The notes beneath the pieces are model-generated. The model saw only the letters and a list, made by a program, of their open reading frames with translations. It was not told the origin of the DNA and searched no databases. Positions 2,706 through 18,134 of a DNA stretch of 25,264 nt are shown here, piece by piece. A program made the translations under genes and the position numbers. The stretch is taken from positions 1-25,264 of the IMG/VR virus record IMGVR_UViG_3300021335_000083; one strand, written 5' to 3'. Origin of the DNA: a virus. How positions within the stretch are numbered: the stretch's first letter is position 1; each line of letters begins with the position of its first letter.

Positions 2706-3069
2706 TATAGAATTAAACTTACCAAAGCCACCAAGCCTTAATCAGTATTATGCTGGTAAGCATTGGGCTATTAGAAAAAAACAAAAAGATGAGTATTCAA
2801 AAGTCTGTAAAGAAGAGCTTGAAAAGTATGATGCGTTTACTTGCTCTTCCTATGAAATTCATATTAGGTATCATTCTCGTCACGATGTTGACAATATTAT
2901 TCTTGTTTCAAAATTTCTCTCTGATACTCTCGTTTCTCAAGGTATCATTAAGGACGATGGTAATAAGTATTACAAAAGGCTTAACATCAAGATTGACAAA
3001 GATTTACCAAAAGATACGTTCCTGGTTACACTCAGATGCTCCGACTTTAAAACTGTAGATAATGATTAA
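2695..3069 (+). CDS. rusA: RusA-type Holliday junction resolvase
   Basis: The 124-residue length and motif order match the RusA family. The N-terminal strand ends PPSLNQYY (12-19), a basic patch with H23, R27 and K28 follows, and then the DVDN motif (D64, D66), K73, D77 and the double Asp GIIKDD (87-88). In E. coli RusA the conserved Asp residues of DLDN and the later DD bind metal, and a Lys between them is needed for cutting, so the active site looks intact. The enzyme would cut branched recombination or replication intermediates before packaging. An overlapping frame at 2750-3058 is a shadow. Its stop overlaps the next start as ATGATTAA. Confidence 0.85.
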   Translation: MVNDIELNLPKPPSLNQYYAGKHWAIRKKQKDEYSKVCKEELEKYDAFTCSSYEIHIRYHSRHDVDNIILVSKFLSDTLVSQGIIKDDGNKYYKRLNIKIDKDLPKDTFLVTLRCSDFKTVDND

Positions 3070-3271
3070 TCAAAGAAACTATCAGACTTGTAAATTAATT
3101 AAGAACAGGATTGATTTATATCTGTACGAAATGGCAAAACTCTTCACTAAAATAGGAACAGATTCTACTGTTGAAGAGATTCAAGAAGCCTACAAGAAAG
3201 AAAAAGAATACATTGAACTAATAGCCGAACTAGACCCCGATAAGGCTGATAGGCTACGCTCATCATATTGA
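3062..3271 (+). CDS. Hypothetical protein, 69 aa
   Basis: This small, probably all-helical, charged protein starts MINQRNYQTCKL. A middle helix (YLYEMAKLFTKIG) is followed by a Glu/Lys-rich coiled-coil-like helix (residues about 35-60) ending in ELDPDKADRLRSSY. It has no membrane segment or enzymatic motif, and I do not recognise it. The start forms an 8-nt overlap with the RusA-like gene and the next gene begins 1 nt after its stop, so it is almost certainly part of the same translated series. Confidence 0.65.
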   Translation: MINQRNYQTCKLIKNRIDLYLYEMAKLFTKIGTDSTVEEIQEAYKKEKEYIELIAELDPDKADRLRSSY

Positions 3272-3272
3272 T

Positions 3273-3491
3273 ATGTCACTTGACCAATACTACGAAGAAT
3301 TAACTAACGATGAAGCGGATTTCATTCTTGACATATACAATGTCATCGACAGAATGGTGCTTGAGCGTGTCCCAGTCACATTGGTTGGATTGGGATATGA
3401 GCTTGGCGTAAATCCTCAAGAGCTGTCTGACCATCTACCTACAATAATACAGATACTCAACAAGGTTGAAGAAGAATACGAGATACGATAA
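3273..3491 (+). CDS. Small acidic protein with possible helix-turn-helix, 72 aa
   Basis: The protein is acidic and helical. Residues about 33-58 (from VPVTLVGLGYELGVN to HLPTII) read as a helix-turn-helix pattern: a helix, a GVN turn and a second helix beginning at PQELSD. This hints at DNA binding, or at a sigma-factor-like or anti-sigma partner of the next gene, but the strong negative charge argues against simple DNA binding. ATG 3273 lies 1 nt after the upstream stop. Its own end is overlapped by 26 nt by the possible sigma-factor gene, suggesting coupling. Family unknown. Confidence 0.6.
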   Translation: MSLDQYYEELTNDEADFILDIYNVIDRMVLERVPVTLVGLGYELGVNPQELSDHLPTIIQILNKVEEEYEIR

Positions 3492-3879
3492 GGTAGCTAT
3501 AGAGCGTGAAGCGATACTATCTGCAAAACAAGGTAGAATAACAGAACCTCTTGGTGAGTTTATACTTCAGCGTTCTATAGAGATTGCTGGTTCTGCGTTT
3601 GTTACAGATGGCAATGAAGAGCTAAAACAATCTCTGATAGATTCTGCTGTTATGCGTACTTGTGAAAAGTTTTTATATTACTATCAAGGTGGCAAAAGTG
3701 CTGCTAATTTAATAATAAGTATTATATATAGTACTATGACTAACAAGATAGTTAGTCTAAATCACAGTGATATTTATGGACATAACATAAAAGGTTATGT
3801 GGTGTGTATAGAAGATGGAGAAAAGTTTACACGCCTGCAAAGATATGTGAAGGATAGTTATTTAAGTCAACAATTATAA
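3466..3879 (+). CDS. Possible divergent T4 gp55-like late sigma factor, 137 aa
   Basis: The pattern resembles phage late sigma factors of the T4 gp55 type. An N-terminal segment ITEPLGEFILQRS (25-37) lines up with the lG..il.ia region. A helix of the aile.c.k.l type follows (LIDSAVMRTCEKFLYYY, 57-73), and then a KSAANLIISIIYSTMTNK segment (77-94) lies where gp55 proteins carry the nPFaYfT core-binding region. The aromatic residues of that last motif are poorly kept. Only a TTG (3466) is available as start upstream of the conserved part; it overlaps the previous gene by 26 nt. If correct, the protein would redirect host RNA polymerase to late phage promoters. A plain unknown protein is the alternative; I am well short of certain. 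Confidence 0.45.
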   Translation: MKKNTRYDKVAIEREAILSAKQGRITEPLGEFILQRSIEIAGSAFVTDGNEELKQSLIDSAVMRTCEKFLYYYQGGKSAANLIISIIYSTMTNKIVSLNHSDIYGHNIKGYVVCIEDGEKFTRLQRYVKDSYLSQQL

Positions 3880-4372: not shown

Positions 4373-4822
4373 ATGAACCTAAAAAAATCATCTCGCAAAA
4401 TAAATAAAATTATCTTGCACTGTAGTGCCACAAGAGAAGGCCAAGACATCAGTGTAGATACTATAAGAAAATGGCACGTTGACGGCAGAGGCTGGTCCGA
4501 CATTGGTTACCATTATATTGTTTCTATAGATGGACAGATAGAAGAAGGTAGACCAATAAATAGAAGCGGAGCGCATACTAAAGGGCAAAACAGTAATAGT
4601 GTAGGCGTTTGCTATATCGGTGGTGTAGAGACTGATGGAAAAACTCCAAAAGACACTAGAAATGCAGAGCAATTAATGGCTCTTGCTAATTTACTAGATG
4701 CCCTTATGGAAATGTATCCTGGCGCTACATTACACGGACACAATGAATTTGCCAATAAAGCTTGTCCATCATTTGATGTACAAAAAGAATATGATTTTTT
4801 AATTAATCCAAAAAATGTATAA
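4373..4822 (+). CDS. Endolysin, T7 lysozyme-type N-acetylmuramoyl-L-alanine amidase
   Basis: The 149-residue protein matches amidase_2/PGRP endolysins over its full length, like T7 lysozyme (about 150 residues). The three zinc ligands fit H16 (ILHCSAT), H123 (HGHNE) and C131 (KACPSF), and the catalytic Tyr and Lys fit Y46 (IGYHYIV) and K129. The spacing from His to Cys (8 residues) and the Tyr position equal those of T7 lysozyme. It would cleave the amide bond between MurNAc and L-Ala of peptidoglycan at the end of infection. No signal peptide is seen, so export needs the holin two genes downstream. T7 lysozyme also inhibits its own RNA polymerase; nothing here indicates that. The start is 1 nt after the previous stop. 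Confidence 0.92.
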   Translation: MNLKKSSRKINKIILHCSATREGQDISVDTIRKWHVDGRGWSDIGYHYIVSIDGQIEEGRPINRSGAHTKGQNSNSVGVCYIGGVETDGKTPKDTRNAEQLMALANLLDALMEMYPGATLHGHNEFANKACPSFDVQKEYDFLINPKNV

Positions 4823-4825
4823 GAT

Positions 4826-4948
4826 ATGAAAAATGATTTTGATTTAAGTGATAGCTTTGCTGATTTCGTAGATGAGTTAGCAAATAGCGAAAAGAATGAA
4901 AACGCCTGTAGCATTGACAATCCAGAATGCGAGGCTTGTGGGAGTTAA
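4826..4948 (+). CDS. Small acidic Cys-containing protein, 40 aa
   Basis: ATG 4826 lies 3 nt after the endolysin stop, and TAA 4946-4948 lies 2 nt before the holin start, so the frame fills the gap exactly. The N-terminal 25 residues are acidic (MKNDFDLSDSFADFVDEL). The C-terminal part has three Cys in ACSIDNPECEACGS, a C-x6-C-x2-C pattern that could bind a metal. No membrane segment or lipobox is present. Its place between endolysin and holin suggests a lysis-related or co-expressed accessory protein, but I recognise no family. Confidence 0.6.
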   Translation: MKNDFDLSDSFADFVDELANSEKNENACSIDNPECEACGS

Positions 4949-4950
4949 TT

Positions 4951-5316
4951 ATGGGAAACTTATTAGGACGATTAAAGGGCAAAGCAGTAACAGAAGTTGT
5001 AGGTGCAGTTGCCAATGTAGTAGACCAGTTTGTTCAGAACCCTGCGGAAAAAGAAGCTGCTCGTGCAGCAATAGAACAGGAGATAAGCAAGAGATGGGGA
5101 GCTGATATGGGTTCTGATTCTTGGTTATCCAAGAATGTAAGACCATTAACCCTTGCAGCAGTAATGATATTCCTAATACTAATGACTTTCTTTGAAGGTT
5201 TTGGTGTTAGTAGTGTTAGTGAAAGATGGATAGGGTTATGGGAGCTAGTAAGCTTAACGGTGATAGGCGGTTACTTCGCAGTAAGAAGCGTGGACAAGAG
5301 AGCCAAAGTAAAGTAA
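4951..5316 (+). CDS. Holin, GTA/3TM-type, 121 aa
   Basis: I start at ATG 4951 (MGNLLGRLKGKAV), 2 nt after the previous stop, rather than at ATG 4927 inside that gene. An amphipathic N-terminal helical region precedes RWGADMGSDSWLSKNVRP (48-65), the signature of the holin_3TM/GTA-holin family. Two strong membrane segments follow (about 66-84 and 98-112) and a basic tail (DKRAKVK). Family members insert in the inner membrane and release or time the endolysin. Position right after the amidase supports this. The stop is followed by three hairpins that close the operon. Confidence 0.8.
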   Translation: MGNLLGRLKGKAVTEVVGAVANVVDQFVQNPAEKEAARAAIEQEISKRWGADMGSDSWLSKNVRPLTLAAVMIFLILMTFFEGFGVSSVSERWIGLWELVSLTVIGGYFAVRSVDKRAKVK

Positions 5317-6702: not shown

Positions 6703-7241
6703 TATAGATTGTATGTTACTCCTCCGTCTTCACAAGAGGTATCCGTAATGCCATCTTTCGGATAGAATACACTGCCTTGGTAGGTATCTTCTTCGTCAAA
6801 TAAATCATTGTCACAACCGTCTGCAACTGCGATATCTTTAATCTCTTGATTATCAAGGATGTAATTTGTAATTCGTTTGTTGATATACCCAAGCTTGCTT
6901 TCGATTGTAGAAGAGATGGTATCAAGAATATATTGGTCTTGCTTACCTTCCTCATTTTTTGTTCTAGCAGTTTCTGTGCGTAGAATACTAATCGCTGCTT
7001 TAGAGGAATACATAGCTAAAGAATACTTAACTAATTTAAACAATCCTTCCTCTGTAGCAGATAGTGTTTGAGCAACAACTTTTGCTTCAATATCTTCATA
7101 TAGGCAAGTGCCTAATAAGTCTTGAATAGATGTGTACTGTTCAAGTTGAATCAATGCCAATAACGCACCTCTGTCCATACGCTTTGGCAAAGGAAAGTTT
7201 TGGTATAGGTAGTTATCGTCAATAAAGATTACATCAACCAT
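6702..7241 (-). CDS. Head-tail connector (adaptor) protein, 179 aa
   Basis: A helical protein with a connector-like N-terminus (IDDNYLYQNFPLPKR) leading to IQLEQYTSIQDLLGTCLYED, then several helices (LFKLVKYSLAMYSSKAAIS) and an acidic C-terminal tail. It resembles small head-completion proteins of the DUF6712/gp6-like type from Bacteroidota phages, which attach under the portal ring. The gene starts inside the portal gene's end (ATGGTTGA, 7234-7241), the expected neighbour for a connector. The disordered acidic tail could be an interaction surface. I rate the role as likely and the exact family as less certain. Confidence 0.6.
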   Translation of the reverse strand: MVDVIFIDDNYLYQNFPLPKRMDRGALLALIQLEQYTSIQDLLGTCLYEDIEAKVVAQTLSATEEGLFKLVKYSLAMYSSKAAISILRTETARTKNEEGKQDQYILDTISSTIESKLGYINKRITNYILDNQEIKDIAVADGCDNDLFDEEDTYQGSVFYPKDGITDTSCEDGGVTYNL

Positions 7242-8475
7242 TTGTTATATCTGTTGTGTTAGCACCTTTAATGCTTTCCAGGTTAATATCTTCTTCAACT
7301 ACAGATAATTCCATCTTATCATATCCTACTGTAGCAAGAATTCTATTTACAGAATCTAAAAGGATTTCTCTATTAGGAAGTGTTTCAGTAGCTCTAAAAA
7401 TTTGGTATGCTGTAACAAGCTCGTTTCCTGTACCGCCAAGCTTACCGCTAACCATAACACCAAATAGAGTAGGAGAAGTTACGTTGTGAGCAGTAAGAAT
7501 TTTAGCATCGTTAAGTCTTGATAATACGTCTACAGTTTTATCTAAGTTTGCAATATCTAGTGGCGTAAACTTTGGTGCATCCTCATCCTTCTTTACCCAA
7601 GAAACTACAAAGTTATCAGCTTCTGGCCCTGTAAAAGATTCTTTAAACTTATTGTATTCTTCACGCTTTTGTTCAGCAGACATATTTCTGCCAATAAAAG
7701 TAGCTAATACTTTAGGAGCAAATCCGTTTTCTGCACTACTCTTAATGTGTTTACCAAATGAAAAGTCTGAAGCAATATAATGAAAAGCAGAAATGTAATT
7801 TGGAACACCATAATATGGGTTTCCAGAGTAAGGATTCGCTACATATAAAAGTGCTTCTGTAGCTGACTTATCAAACTTATTAAAAGCCTTAATTTTTTTA
7901 GGCTCGTTGTGCTGTACAGAATTAGCTCCATAGCCAAAGCTTCTTCTTACAATGTAATGTGTGACCTCACCTTTAGCATTTGGTTCGCCTACACGAACTC
8001 CTTTTGGGTCTACAGACTTTAGTTCTACAATCTTAGTGCGCTCTTTGTTCCAACGAACATATAAAGCTAAAGCACCTTTGTGTTCATATTGGAATGCAGC
8101 GTGTGTAAGAACTTCATACATTCCCTGGTTATTACCACCACAATGGTTTAGAAATGCTTTTAATTCTGCCTTAGATTTATTAGTAGTAAGGAATTCATCG
8201 CTATAAGCAATGTCATTACCTACTACCATCTTTGCTTTCTTAGTTAAGATACCACTATGTACTGGAGATTGGCGTAGCATCTTTTCAAGAATTACTGGAA
8301 AATCGTCATTAACACCAAACTTAATATAATCGCCTAGTGTTGTATGACCAAGCTTATATCTACCATTAAGGTCTTCAATAGAATTTTCTAACTCGTTGGT
8401 TGGAATGCTATTCTCTGTAGCTTGTACAAAGGTATTAGAAGCAAAGAAATCTGTTATGTTTGATAGTAAACCCAT
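7234..8475 (-). CDS. Phage portal protein, 413 aa
   Basis: Length and pattern fit an HK97/PBSX-type portal. The N-terminal region includes YIKFGVNDDFPVILEKMLRQS, resembling the nlY..N.l....i.....a portal start. A central wing region has KGALALYVRWNKE and ELKSVDPKGVR, and ANPYSGNPYYGVPNY-x-SAFHYIASD (the P..YYG.P....A region) leads into the stem. A C-terminal helical part follows (FRATETLPNREILLDSVNR, near residue 370). The dodecameric ring would sit at the capsid vertex and pass DNA. It follows a fibre-like gene rather than terminase, which is unusual. The leader carries a TTGTAAATTA element 6 nt before the ATG. Confidence 0.8.
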   Translation of the reverse strand: MGLLSNITDFFASNTFVQATENSIPTNELENSIEDLNGRYKLGHTTLGDYIKFGVNDDFPVILEKMLRQSPVHSGILTKKAKMVVGNDIAYSDEFLTTNKSKAELKAFLNHCGGNNQGMYEVLTHAAFQYEHKGALALYVRWNKERTKIVELKSVDPKGVRVGEPNAKGEVTHYIVRRSFGYGANSVQHNEPKKIKAFNKFDKSATEALLYVANPYSGNPYYGVPNYISAFHYIASDFSFGKHIKSSAENGFAPKVLATFIGRNMSAEQKREEYNKFKESFTGPEADNFVVSWVKKDEDAPKFTPLDIANLDKTVDVLSRLNDAKILTAHNVTSPTLFGVMVSGKLGGTGNELVTAYQIFRATETLPNREILLDSVNRILATVGYDKMELSVVEEDINLESIKGANTTDITNG

Positions 8476-8481
8476 ATGATA

Positions 8482-8491
8482 TAATTTACAA
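8482..8491 (-). repeat. Recurrent TTGTAAATTA element in gene gaps (4 copies)
   Basis: The 10-mer TTGTAAATTA (minus-strand reading) occurs exactly at 8482-8491, 14731-14740, 16261-16270 and 18125-18134, each within 10 nt after a stop codon and before the next minus-strand gene. A near copy, TTGTAAAAT, overlaps the tape-measure start at 24732-24740. In front of the portal and the 258-residue gene the element ends about 6 nt before ATG, a distance that suits a translation-initiation element in an organism with weak Shine-Dalgarno use. A promoter part or chance in AT-rich gaps are alternatives. One further copy lies inside a plus-strand gene at about 3089. Confidence 0.4.
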
Positions 8492-14154: not shown

Positions 14155-14682
14155 TTATTCGAAAATAGTTTGGTCAGAAAAAACTGTTTTATCGTTAACA
14201 ACCAAAGAAGCAATTCCGCTTTGAGTGTTTAGTGTGATGTTAACATAAGACTTTTCAGAAGTTCCTGTACCACTGTTAGCTTCATAATTCATTGTTAATC
14301 CATCCATCCACCCAGATATAGTGACAGTATCGTTGTTATGTAAAAGAATGCAGCAGATGTCTTCTCTGCGACTCATAAGGTCTATTTGGTTAACCTTGTT
14401 GTCTATTGCTGGGGACTGAATGGTAATATCAGTAGTAATAACACCCAATCCACTTGTGGTGCTTTTATTTTCTGTAAAAGTTGTAGTACCGTCTTTTGGA
14501 TTATGAGCAAAAGTTACGGTGTTTAGAGTATCTACTTGAGTTACTTGTGTCTCATCTAAAGGGTCAAAAGTAATCGTCAAGTCTTTTTGTAATAGTAAGA
14601 TAGCTTTCTTGATACCACCCGTAACTCTCTTGCTACAGTTAATATCAATATCGCTTAATAAAATAGAACAGTTGAAAGCCAT
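14155..14682 (-). CDS. Second tail-tube-like virion protein, 175 aa
   Basis: It is a clear paralogue of the protein at 14750-15280: same length, same N-terminal Cys pair (C5 and C16 against C3 and C14), a matching DI-x3-C and GGI start, a KDG-x3-F-x-E strand in the middle, and a NSGTG-x2-EK-x5-LTL-like C-terminal signature (NSGTGTSEKSYVNITLN). The fold appears beta-rich. It could be a minor tube, tail-terminator-side or tail-tip adaptor ring made from a duplicated tube gene. It follows a strong terminator, so it is probably made in smaller amount than its paralogue. Codon use also looks less biased. Confidence 0.55.
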   Translation of the reverse strand: MAFNCSILLSDIDINCSKRVTGGIKKAILLLQKDLTITFDPLDETQVTQVDTLNTVTFAHNPKDGTTTFTENKSTTSGLGVITTDITIQSPAIDNKVNQIDLMSRREDICCILLHNNDTVTISGWMDGLTMNYEANSGTGTSEKSYVNITLNTQSGIASLVVNDKTVFSDQTIFE

Positions 14683-14690
14683 ATTTTTTT

Positions 14691-14724
14691 AAAATAAAAA
14701 GGGGCAGGGTTTTAGCCCTACCCC
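14691..14724 (-). terminator. Terminator after the tube-like gene
   Basis: Reading the minus strand, GGGGTAGGG (14724-14716) pairs with CCCTGCCCC (14709-14701) around a six-base loop and is followed by TTTTTATTTT (14700-14691). The single irregular pair is a U-G wobble on the minus-strand RNA but would be a C-A mismatch on plus-strand RNA, so the stem is better built for the minus strand. It lies 25 nt after the tube-like stop and should limit read-through into the fibre genes. Confidence 0.85.
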
Positions 14725-14749
14725 TTGTGTTAATTTACAAGATTTGCTA

Positions 14750-15334: not shown

Positions 15335-16228
15335 TTATGCGAAGTTCTTAGCGTAGACAATCTCTTCACCTTTCAAGTAAGAGAAGCCTAACTTGAACTG
15401 TCCCCAAATCTTATCAGAAGACAATTCAGCTTCGTACTTCATATCGATAGCACGAACATCGTTGTAATCGTCAGTCAACATCACCAAGTTTTGTGGTGCG
15501 CTGATGAAGAACTCATTCGCAGGCAAAGAAGCCATATGTACAACTTCCATACCGTAGTAGTTAGGAATACCACCTTCTACAACACCTTGAGGAGTAGTAG
15601 TGTACAAACCAGCGATAGCGATTTGGTAAGCTTGCATAGCAGCAGTACCCAAGAAGTAAGCTGGTTTGAAATCACGGTCAGCATCACCGTAAACAGCAGC
15701 CAACATAACGTCACTCATAGTTTCGTAAGCACCTTCCATCAAAGAAAGTACGTTAGAAGAAGAGATAGTAGCGTTAGTATCGTAGTCTAATACAGCAGCA
15801 TCAGAACCGAATTCTGTAGTCAATTCAGTACCAGCCAATTCCAATGCTTTTTGAGCAGACAATTTAGCGAAGTAGTCGAATACCCAGTCTTTGAATTCAG
15901 CATCCATAGTCTCTGGGTTGTGCTGACCTTGCTTCAACAACAAGCCACGGTAAGAAGACTCAAGAGCATCTTTACAGTTTAGGAAAGCCCACTTGTAAGT
16001 TTCAACAGTCATCTCTTTTTCACCTACTGAAGCAGTAGACTGAGAATCAAAAACACACAAGTCGTTACCAAAGGTAAGAGATGCATCAAAAATAGGCACG
16101 TTTACTTTTGCCTTAACACCATCAATAAGACGGAAGCGGTTCAATACAGCCGCTGATTTTACCATTGCATCGATGAACAAGTCTGGACGTCTGTCACCGT
16201 ATGGCAAATTTGAAATAGAAATACTCAT
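15335..16228 (-). CDS. Major capsid protein candidate, 297 aa
   Basis: The gene lies directly after the protease-scaffold gene, the usual place for the HK97-fold major capsid protein, and the length is right for a compact one. The middle looks helical with long strands near the end (FKLGFSYLKGEEIVYAKNFA). Segments such as GAYETMSDVMLAAVYGDADR and NEFFISAPQNLVMLTDDYND read like the peripheral domain and the long strand of capsid proteins. Codon choice is biased toward C-ending codons for Phe, Tyr and Asn, more than in the tape measure or tail-tip genes, as expected for the most abundant protein. No N-terminal delta-domain is obvious, consistent with a separate scaffold. Confidence 0.72.
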   Translation of the reverse strand: MSISISNLPYGDRRPDLFIDAMVKSAAVLNRFRLIDGVKAKVNVPIFDASLTFGNDLCVFDSQSTASVGEKEMTVETYKWAFLNCKDALESSYRGLLLKQGQHNPETMDAEFKDWVFDYFAKLSAQKALELAGTELTTEFGSDAAVLDYDTNATISSSNVLSLMEGAYETMSDVMLAAVYGDADRDFKPAYFLGTAAMQAYQIAIAGLYTTTPQGVVEGGIPNYYGMEVVHMASLPANEFFISAPQNLVMLTDDYNDVRAIDMKYEAELSSDKIWGQFKLGFSYLKGEEIVYAKNFA

Positions 16229-16273
16229 TTTATATGAATTTTAAAAAAGTTCGTTTTACTTAATTTACAATAA

Positions 16274-17350
16274 TTACTTGCGGTTAAAGAAGTTATTAAT
16301 CATATTAACCTTTTCGGGAGTAATACCATTAAAAACTACTGTCTTATCTTCTACTGTTTCTTCAACTTCTTCCGCTTTTTGTTCAGCAGCAAATGCTTCT
16401 TCAACTTCAGCTTCGTTAGTTTCTTCTTCAGCAGATAGTTGCTCTTCAACTTCTTGAGTTGCAGCCTCAAATTCTTCAGCCATTTCCTCAGTTGTTTCTT
16501 CAGCAACTTGCTCGGTCATTTCTTCCTGTACTTCTGGAGCTGATTCCTCAGATTCCTCGTACACTTTTTCTTCATCTTCAGTATGCTCGGCCATCTCTTT
16601 TTCTTCAGATGTACCCATACTTTCAATGTGCTTTTGAATCATTTCGATAGCAGACTTTAGGTCTTCAACGCCAGCGAACTTATCCTCAAAAGATGTCAAT
16701 GCTTCAAGGAGTACGTTGTTTTCGTTCTCCAAAGCTTCAATGCGTGCCTCGTACTTGTTAGCCATTGCCTCAAATTGAGCCTCTAGTTTACCAAGTTCTT
16801 TGGCGAAAGCAAATTCATTCATTTGTTCGTTATTATTTGTTGGTTTAATATCAGCTTTAATCTCAATAGAGAAACCATTAATCTCTCCACTTTTGATTGC
16901 AGTGAATAATTCGTCAGACTCAATCTTTGCCTTAACGAATACGGTTCCGTTTGGTAAATCATAACCATAGTCTTTTGACTTATCATTATCACTTTCTTTC
17001 ATCCAAACTTCAAGCATTACCACATCATCAGTATCGTATGAGTGGTTAACACCAAATGCGTTAAATAGTCCTTCCTTAGAATACTTGTACATAATCTCAC
17101 GGATAGTTTCTTCCGTAAATCTTACATAGTAATATCCCATATCTGGACTAAATCGTAGAATCTCCTTATTAGGAATCATAATAGGTCCTACGACTTCTTT
17201 CTTTTCTTCATTAGAAAACATTTGAATTTTCTTTACCTCATTAAAGTAGATAAAGTTTTCTTCAATAGCTGGTTTGTCTACAAGAGAAATCTTATACATT
17301 CCTTGTGCAATGTCCTCTAATGATATATCAAATAATGGTAAGTTATCCAT
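16274..17350 (-). CDS. XkdF-type prohead protease fused to acidic scaffold, 358 aa
   Basis: The start is ATG 17350 (MDNLPLFDISLED), which makes an 8-nt ATGGATAA overlap with the upstream gene. Residues 1-165 form a phage maturation protease of the XkdF/HK97 assemblin class: KISLVDKPAIEENF (20-33), VVGPIMIPN (53-61), a His in FGVNHSYD (H103) and a Ser in EINGFSIE (S161), the expected His-Ser pair. Residues about 175-255 are a coiled coil, and 270-335 are extremely Glu-rich, ending in a basic TPEKVNMINNFFNRK tail that suits capsid-shell contact. The protein thus combines protease and scaffold. An in-frame ATG at 16822 (M177, MNEFAF) could give a separate 182-residue scaffold. Confidence 0.75.
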   Translation of the reverse strand: MDNLPLFDISLEDIAQGMYKISLVDKPAIEENFIYFNEVKKIQMFSNEEKKEVVGPIMIPNKEILRFSPDMGYYYVRFTEETIREIMYKYSKEGLFNAFGVNHSYDTDDVVMLEVWMKESDNDKSKDYGYDLPNGTVFVKAKIESDELFTAIKSGEINGFSIEIKADIKPTNNNEQMNEFAFAKELGKLEAQFEAMANKYEARIEALENENNVLLEALTSFEDKFAGVEDLKSAIEMIQKHIESMGTSEEKEMAEHTEDEEKVYEESEESAPEVQEEMTEQVAEETTEEMAEEFEAATQEVEEQLSAEEETNEAEVEEAFAAEQKAEEVEETVEDKTVVFNGITPEKVNMINNFFNRK

Positions 17351-18119
17351 TCTTTTTACTTCTTTTATGCCAACTCGGTAGCAAGTCATTATCTTGTGTG
17401 TACTTTGGGTTAGAAGGTTTTCCATTCTTAACTAAGTACATAAATGCGTTTAATCGTGCAAGTCCCCATTGTACCGCTGAGGTAACTTTAGGACTGTGGG
17501 AGGTGTTGTACGCGCCCATACCTCGTAGTACGACTCTTTTTGCAGCACCAACCCCAATCTTTTTTTTAGGGTATTTTTGGTTATAAGCATTAACCTTATT
17601 AGTTATTTGCTTAATAATCGTAGGAGAAAGTTTTCCACCGCTTCCAACGCCTTTAGGATTGCTCTCAGGAGTTTTGCTTTTAGGAGCTTTGGGAGATTTA
17701 CTAATGCTTCCATCGCTTCCTTGAGTAGCGTAATCATCCTTGACTTTACGGTCACCCCACGGGAGGTCAGCGACATCAGCACTTGCCTTAACTGTTCCTT
17801 TTCGTATGCTCTCAGCTTTTCTAATCGCCCAGTTAATTCCGCTTGTGCCTCCCCAGCCGAGCCAAGCAACATACCCTCTATCTTTCCAAGGAGTGTCCTT
17901 ATACTTAGGGTCAATTTCAGCATTTTTTCTATGGCGATTAAACGCAGCCATTCTAGCAATAGTGTCATAGCTTAACTTTCTTTTTGATGCTAATTGTCTT
18001 GCACGAGTCCAACCCACTGAAGTCATTCCTTTAACTTCATCACCATACTTCTCCTTCCACGCAAGAACTTTCTTTGCGTTGTTAGTAGCAGATTGTGGAT
18101 AGTCGTTATATGTAGCCAT
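17343..18119 (-). CDS. Two-domain phage protein of unknown function, 258 aa
   Basis: The N-terminal block (1-110) has a dense conserved-looking series: NNAKKVLAWKEKYGDEVKGM, VGWTRARQLASK, LSYDTIARMAAFNRHRKN and DRGYVAWLGWGGTSGINWA. Such W/R/G-rich blocks occur alone or fused to head maturation proteins in phages. A Ser/Lys/Pro linker (about 125-160) joins a second block (about 165-258) with GVGAAKRVVLRGMGAYNTSH and VQWGLARLNAFMYLVKNG. The positive charge suggests nucleic-acid or scaffold contact. It lies directly before the protease-scaffold gene, so a head-assembly role is likely. The start is the only good ATG, 6 nt downstream of a TTGTAAATTA element. Antisense frames in 17577-17975 are shadows. 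Confidence 0.6.
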   Translation of the reverse strand: MATYNDYPQSATNNAKKVLAWKEKYGDEVKGMTSVGWTRARQLASKRKLSYDTIARMAAFNRHRKNAEIDPKYKDTPWKDRGYVAWLGWGGTSGINWAIRKAESIRKGTVKASADVADLPWGDRKVKDDYATQGSDGSISKSPKAPKSKTPESNPKGVGSGGKLSPTIIKQITNKVNAYNQKYPKKKIGVGAAKRVVLRGMGAYNTSHSPKVTSAVQWGLARLNAFMYLVKNGKPSNPKYTQDNDLLPSWHKRSKKNG

Positions 18120-18134
18120 CGTATTAATTTACAA

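Follow-up and report, generated by a model that had tools for sequence, protein, structure and literature searches.

ORF 3466-3879 of a virus record of 25,264 bases, which was analysed over its whole length and is called the window here, is best explained as the gene for a minimal gp55-type sigma factor of a phage of about 38 kb, a factor that would read late promoters consisting of a -10 element only. We put the probability of this explanation as a whole at roughly 0.7. That the protein is a late sigma of the gp55 type is well supported by fold prediction and by a sequence link that runs through jumbo-phage relatives. The two genes at the centre of the argument are:

3466..3879, + strand: gp55-like late sigma factor (sigma region 2 protein) by predicted fold and profiles, 137 aa, TTG start
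3273..3491, + strand: small acidic helix-turn-helix (HTH)-like ORF, 72 aa, overlapping the sigma gene by 26 nt

By profile matches, the + strand block of the window holds a helicase-like gene, a RusA-like resolvase gene, an amidase and a holin, and the - strand is a virion block that includes portal, tape-measure and protease-like genes. (ORF 2187-2705 on the + strand, which adjoins the RusA-like gene, gives a weak match to NOV_C that falls below the cut-off, PF13020, E 0.0022.) The siphovirus label of this phage is a putative one that rests on the tape-measure match. Most annotated relatives of the helicase come from phages of Flavobacterium and Riemerella, and most of those of the portal from Nonlabens phages; this is probably a small marine phage with Flavobacteria as its hosts. 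The larger related records that were searched are 23-43 kb. Two related records, with terminal repeats of 345 bp and 120 bp (the latter is G004), are probably complete at about 38 kb, and most of the others may be fragments. The further genes of the window that enter the argument are:

4373..4822, + strand: amidase (lysis), PF01510 E 5e-14, phrog_822; 3' of the sigma gene and codirectional with it
4927..5316, + strand: holin, phrog_3427 E 1.5e-16
7234..8475, - strand (late strand): portal protein, phrog_11226 E 8.2e-25
14155-14682, - strand: putative tail tube, a label inferred for an ORF that matches no family
15335-16228, - strand: putative major capsid protein, a label inferred for an ORF whose sole match is a family of unknown function
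17343-18119, - strand (late strand): ORF with no assigned function

ORF 3466-3879 is a real gene, since it has many relatives and most of these match it over its full length. Scans of viral contigs returned 20 loci, 58 loci, and, in three further scans, the best 80 of 167, the best 80 of 191 and the best 80 of 189; one scan of genome contigs gave 234 pattern matches and zero relatives. Alignment of 54 family members, with identity down to 50%, has made it possible to judge several statements of a preliminary description of this DNA, which had proposed an ORF with a TTG start, had singled out the segments ITEPLGEFIL, CEKFLYYY and KSAANLIISIIYSTMTNK, and had pointed to a small acidic HTH-like ORF that lies just upstream and overlaps. 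All of these are borne out. The 137-aa ORF belongs to a conserved family, the three segments are present and fall in its well-conserved stretches, and a relative of the HTH-like ORF stands directly upstream of the sigma gene in 54 of 54 members, overlapping it by 11-92 nt. The TTG start is supported because 23 of the 54 aligned members offer TTG alone, without ATG, before residue 12 (ATG occurs there in 30 and GTG in 1); in one large group of the family an ATG lies a few codons 3' of the TTG place. The HTH-like ORF itself matched no family, its scattered weak matches being led by HTH_micro at E 0.0045 in one of 22 members.

Searches of phage records with the single protein or the family gave nothing significant (one was empty to E 1, and two gave E values of at least 0.7), and the same was true of PHROGs and Pfam besides a weak match to phrog_33363 (48 positions, function unknown) for 6 of 12 members, with a best E of 8e-4. 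Sequence searches of the PDB yielded armadillo repeats at E 0.013 in one case and were empty in another. Thirteen T4-like records and FCL-2 contain nothing that the family profile matches (0/14), and an hhalign comparison of the family with gp55 alone is weak and undecisive (Prob 4.4%, P 0.0092). The family profile and a gp55 profile do converge, at E 4e-5 and 1.5e-6, on one ORF of Tenacibaculum phage pT24 (a 234-kb record), and this bridging ORF matches phrog_234, 'late sigma', at 5.2e-7. A jumbo-phage profile was built from eight proteins, that of pT24 and seven tblastn relatives of it, and compared with 5500 distinct ORFs, all 60 codons or longer, 107 of them family members. The best family member scored E 3.4e-6; 49 of the 107 reached E<0.05, as did zero unrelated ORFs among the 5500, and 89 of the 107 outranked the best unrelated ORF. 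The window ORF, at E 0.16 and rank 91, is ahead of all unrelated ORFs. With a profile of gp55 only, family members are the six best ORFs behind gp55 and pT24 (best E 0.023), and the window ORF, at E 220, does not stand out; with a combined gp55 and jumbo-phage profile, the window ORF has E 14 and 15 of the 107 members lie above the best unrelated ORF. Homology to the gp55 family is found, in other words, through the jumbo-phage relatives, the direct comparison being weak.

The predicted fold agrees with this assignment. An AlphaFold2 model built from 54 sequences (pLDDT 79.8) has helices at residues 9-22, 27-44, 51-72 and 79-103, four helices as in sigma region 2, the helical fold of the T4 gp55 family. 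(An earlier model from 12 close sequences was set aside at pLDDT 52.) T4 gp55 (7d7c_F) is the top match of a Foldseek search of the PDB, with E 0.049 and probability 1.00, and it is also the best match by VIA-align 2 (Z 12.4, rmsd 4.9, 118 residues aligned), where the runner-up is a sigmaE at Z 10.1. Sigma factors, or complexes containing one, account for 49 of the 50 VIA rows listed, some of them assigned by gene name; the exception is Sld7 (Z 7.1). In a viral structure library a 119-aa protein of pT24 ranks first (E 5.5e-5), and a phage late sigma comes second (3.8e-4). The VIA alignment with gp55 extends to residue 132 of the model, and the region after helix four is modelled, at low confidence, as a beta hairpin, where gp55 has a helix-loop-helix. 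The reading of this ORF as a gp55-like late sigma, put forward in the preliminary description, is accordingly not refuted by family placement, in which the pT24 ORF joins the family to gp55, or by fold, in which the sigma region 2 helices are predicted and gp55 is the closest structure.

The same description had suggested that a common late promoter be sought in the leader of the virion operon. The window covers part of that leader, and a search of the late-strand gaps of the window and eight relatives has yielded the motif TTGTAAATTA, which is common to them. In these nine records, which were chosen for carrying the sigma gene, TTGTAAATTA has 43 late-strand and 6 early-strand copies against 1.6 expected from shuffles. 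Over 193 sequences, context clusters with the form TTGTAWATTA number 45 on the late strand and 10 on the early one; by distinct contexts the strands are closer, 75 late to 58 early, because a single early place recurs. Downstream of TTGTAWATTA, AA is present at +14/+15 in 82-84%, and upstream of it there are no conserved positions among the 45 late context clusters. By computation, the motif is a candidate for a late promoter of the T4 type, with a -10 element only. It precedes just 4 of the 19 late ORFs of the window:

18125..18134, - strand: TTGTAAATTA, starting 15 nt upstream of the start codon of ORF 17343-18119
16261..16270, - strand: TTGTAAATTA, 42 nt upstream of the putative major capsid gene, ORF 15335-16228
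14731..14740, - strand: TTGTAAATTA, 58 nt before ORF 14155-14682 (putative tail tube)
8482..8491, - strand: TTGTAAATTA, starting 16 nt upstream of the portal gene

Of 77 portal loci, picked by portal rather than by sigma gene, 62 have an exact TGTAAATTA in the 60 nt before the portal; in the distinct rows listed for the other 15, TTGTAGATTA is seen in 8 and no such sequence in 3. In the window (8473-8491, - strand) 6 nt separate the motif end from the portal start codon, and the distance is 5-6 nt in many relatives. Because the motif is so near, the predicted portal transcript would have almost no leader. Before the putative tail tube gene (14683-14740, - strand), a GC-rich hairpin and a T run come directly after TTGTAAATTA, an arrangement that several relatives also have; this hairpin may stabilise the 5' end of the transcript or act as a terminator.

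One early-strand copy of the motif deserves separate treatment:

3062..3271, + strand: small conserved ORF, 69 aa, carrying an intragenic promoter-like site
3088..3097, + strand: TTGTAAATTA, inside ORF 3062-3271 and 185 nt upstream of the HTH-like ORF; candidate promoter for the HTH, sigma and lysis genes

The codons at this site are nearly invariant: TGT in 94 of 94, AAA in 91 of 96 and TTA in 85 of 88. These counts take in those of 110 contexts that have the majority residue; some of the 110 are out of register (no Cys there). The decamer is exact in 63 of the 110, its first T being free, and the neighbouring Leu codons use several synonyms. Such synonymous constraint indicates, at the level of sequence, that selection acts on the DNA itself.

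From these results we infer the following mechanism. Late in infection, the gp55-like protein would replace the host sigma on the host RNA polymerase core, and the polymerase carrying it would go to promoters that have a -10-like element alone, with TGTAAATTA as the core. This core lies about 4 nt before the conserved AA, at which transcription probably starts. The candidate promoters stand before virion genes, on the strand opposite to the sigma gene. The intragenic copy on the sigma gene's own strand could drive the HTH, sigma and lysis genes, which would create a positive feedback loop and would time lysis with virion production. The gp55-like protein might read the motif with or without the overlapping HTH protein, which is likely a helper in the position that gp33 has in T4.

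The main rival grants that the ORF encodes a gp55-like sigma region 2 protein but has TTGTAAATTA read by another factor, either the HTH partner, acting as a DNA-binding protein, or a second, ECF-like sigma, so that the promoters of the gp55-like protein differ; an ECF-like reader is the chief form of it. The HTH-like ORF does always adjoin the sigma gene, as noted above, and an ECF-like sigma (phrog_1740; its region 4 match, PF08281 at E 3.9e-4, misses the curated cut-off) is encoded at 28 loci or records, some on the same contig, including G001, G007 and G009. In relatives the ECF-like gene lies in the early region (L011:2-652, + strand; L216:5327-6052, + strand; L212:12316-13026, - strand); the window begins past that place. 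However, the profile did not find the gene in G002, G003, G004, G005 or G008 (most of them possibly fragments, G004 probably complete), and all five retain the sigma gene and the motif. In addition, the motif resembles a -10 element, placed 4 nt from a conserved AA and with its upstream side unconserved. We consider a different reader unlikely.

Still less probable is the view that takes TTGTAAATTA for a translation signal or for a promoter element of the host, and not for a phage late promoter. Flavobacterium host promoters are described in PMC6847099 as carrying TAHHTTTG, a -7 element located 4-5 nt before the start site, but TAnnTTTG has 21 late and 24 early copies in the window and thus no clear strand bias. 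A translation signal would fit those motif copies that begin 15-16 nt before a start codon; against it, 37 of the 45 late clusters have a start codon within 140 nt and in these it lies anywhere between 5 and 72 nt from the motif end, and the synonymously constrained intragenic copy is 185 nt from the next start. Least probable of all is that this is a four-helix protein of a different function whose likeness to sigma region 2 is convergence: middling Z values, up to about 13, are common for helical bundles, tblastn gives a weak match to a terminase small subunit (E 5), and the clamp-helix acids are out of alignment, but gp55 heads the PDB matches, sigma factors or their complexes fill all but one of the 50 VIA rows listed, and both the pT24 bridge and the profile searches of 5500 ORFs point to gp55.

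Compared with T4 gp55 (185 aa; PDB 7d7c and 7d7d; phrog_234), the protein of the preferred gp55-type reading has the same order of sigma region 2 helices over the 118 aligned residues, and its candidate promoters likewise seem to have no -35 element, but it is 137 aa long and the family is without the long C-terminal tail. An invariant tyrosine of the family, Tyr7, is one column from T4 Tyr10. By the account given in PMC7892883, T4 gp55 residues E70, D74 and E77 bind the beta' clamp helices. The corresponding columns are S, S and M in the window ORF, and 7 of 10 representatives have E where T4 has D74; Asp59, invariant in the 54 members, sits one residue off the T4 clamp-helix acid place, and since identity is low and this invariant Asp is one residue away, the register of the alignment here is uncertain.

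In T4, late transcription driven by gp55 is activated by the phage sliding clamp. No member of the clamp families PF02916 and PF00712 (the bacterial type) was found in the 19 records searched for each, the window and 18 related ones of which most are possibly fragments; T4 itself was positive for PF02916, found on gp45. The family C-terminus is nevertheless conserved, with D130 invariant and S134 and L137 nearly invariant in 54 members, and these residues might form a short clamp peptide or bind the clamp of the host. The cyanophage gp55s that were compared end early as well. The T4 late promoter consensus is TATAAATA, which differs from the TTGTAAATTA of these phages. As a late motif here, TATAAATA had 5 late and 0 early copies in the window alone and was dropped because it does not separate the strands over the nine records (22 late, 16 early).

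A review (PMC2988020) regards T4 gp55 and gp33 together as a split sigma. The present arrangement is similar in having a region 2 protein plus a small partner and differs in that the partner is a 72-aa HTH-like ORF that overlaps the sigma gene. In pT24 a 461-aa ORF stands immediately upstream, in place of the small HTH ORF. By sequence, the closest gp55-like ORFs are those of Tenacibaculum phages pT24 and PTm1, Chryseobacterium phages MA9V-1 and MA9V-2, Sphingomonas phage PAU (gp112) and Xanthomonas phage XacN1; most of these are short and, as here, without a long tail, but their records are at least 200 kb, unlike this phage. Nonlabens phage P12024S gp33, annotated as Sigma-70 region 2, is likewise a sigma-like gene in a flavobacterial phage of about 36 kb; that record has no match to the family profile, and the motif is present in it once. 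It is already known, then, that gp55-like factors are annotated in jumbo phages and that a small flavobacterial phage has a sigma region 2 gene. In titles and abstract openings, with few subscription papers covered, no publication was found that deals with either the late-strand motif or any gp55-like late sigma of a small phage of Bacteroidetes. A gp55 relative in phages of about 38 kb, with no identified clamp gene and with a visible candidate promoter, would show the minimal size of such a system.

The sigma and the motif also vary between relatives. In G023 and G024 the sigma has 41-43% identity to that of the window and TTGTAAATTA is absent (39,000 of the 51,594 bases of G023 were covered). 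TCGTAAATTA is found there in three late-strand and zero early-strand copies each, although two of the three sites in G023 are copies of one, in a duplicated stretch; elsewhere it has one late-strand copy each in G022 and L297 and one early-strand copy in G001. The capsid, tube and portal genes of this clade are without the motif. A first guess for the two records, ATAATnnTCTAA (2 sites in G024, 3 in G023), was superseded by TCGTAAATTA. Though the sites are few, these differences suggest that they changed along with some factor that reads them by sequence, be it this sigma or another. A fuller picture, tentative and with the odds somewhat against it, would be a two-protein late sigma that works without a phage clamp, in which the gp55 region 2 protein and the HTH protein replace gp55, gp33 and gp45 of T4, read TTGTAAATTA on the polymerase of the host, switch on themselves and the lysis genes through the intragenic promoter, and yield late mRNAs that are nearly leaderless or begin with a 5' hairpin, promoter and sigma co-evolving as in the TCGTAAATTA clade. 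Such natural variants would allow sigma-promoter co-evolution to be examined in a phylum where RNA polymerase recognises promoters of an unusual kind. The duplicated stretch of G023 (about 22785-26892 and 32817-36924; L324:12785-16892 and L325:3817-7924) contains the portal and its neighbours twice, about 10 kb apart, and is possibly an assembly duplication.
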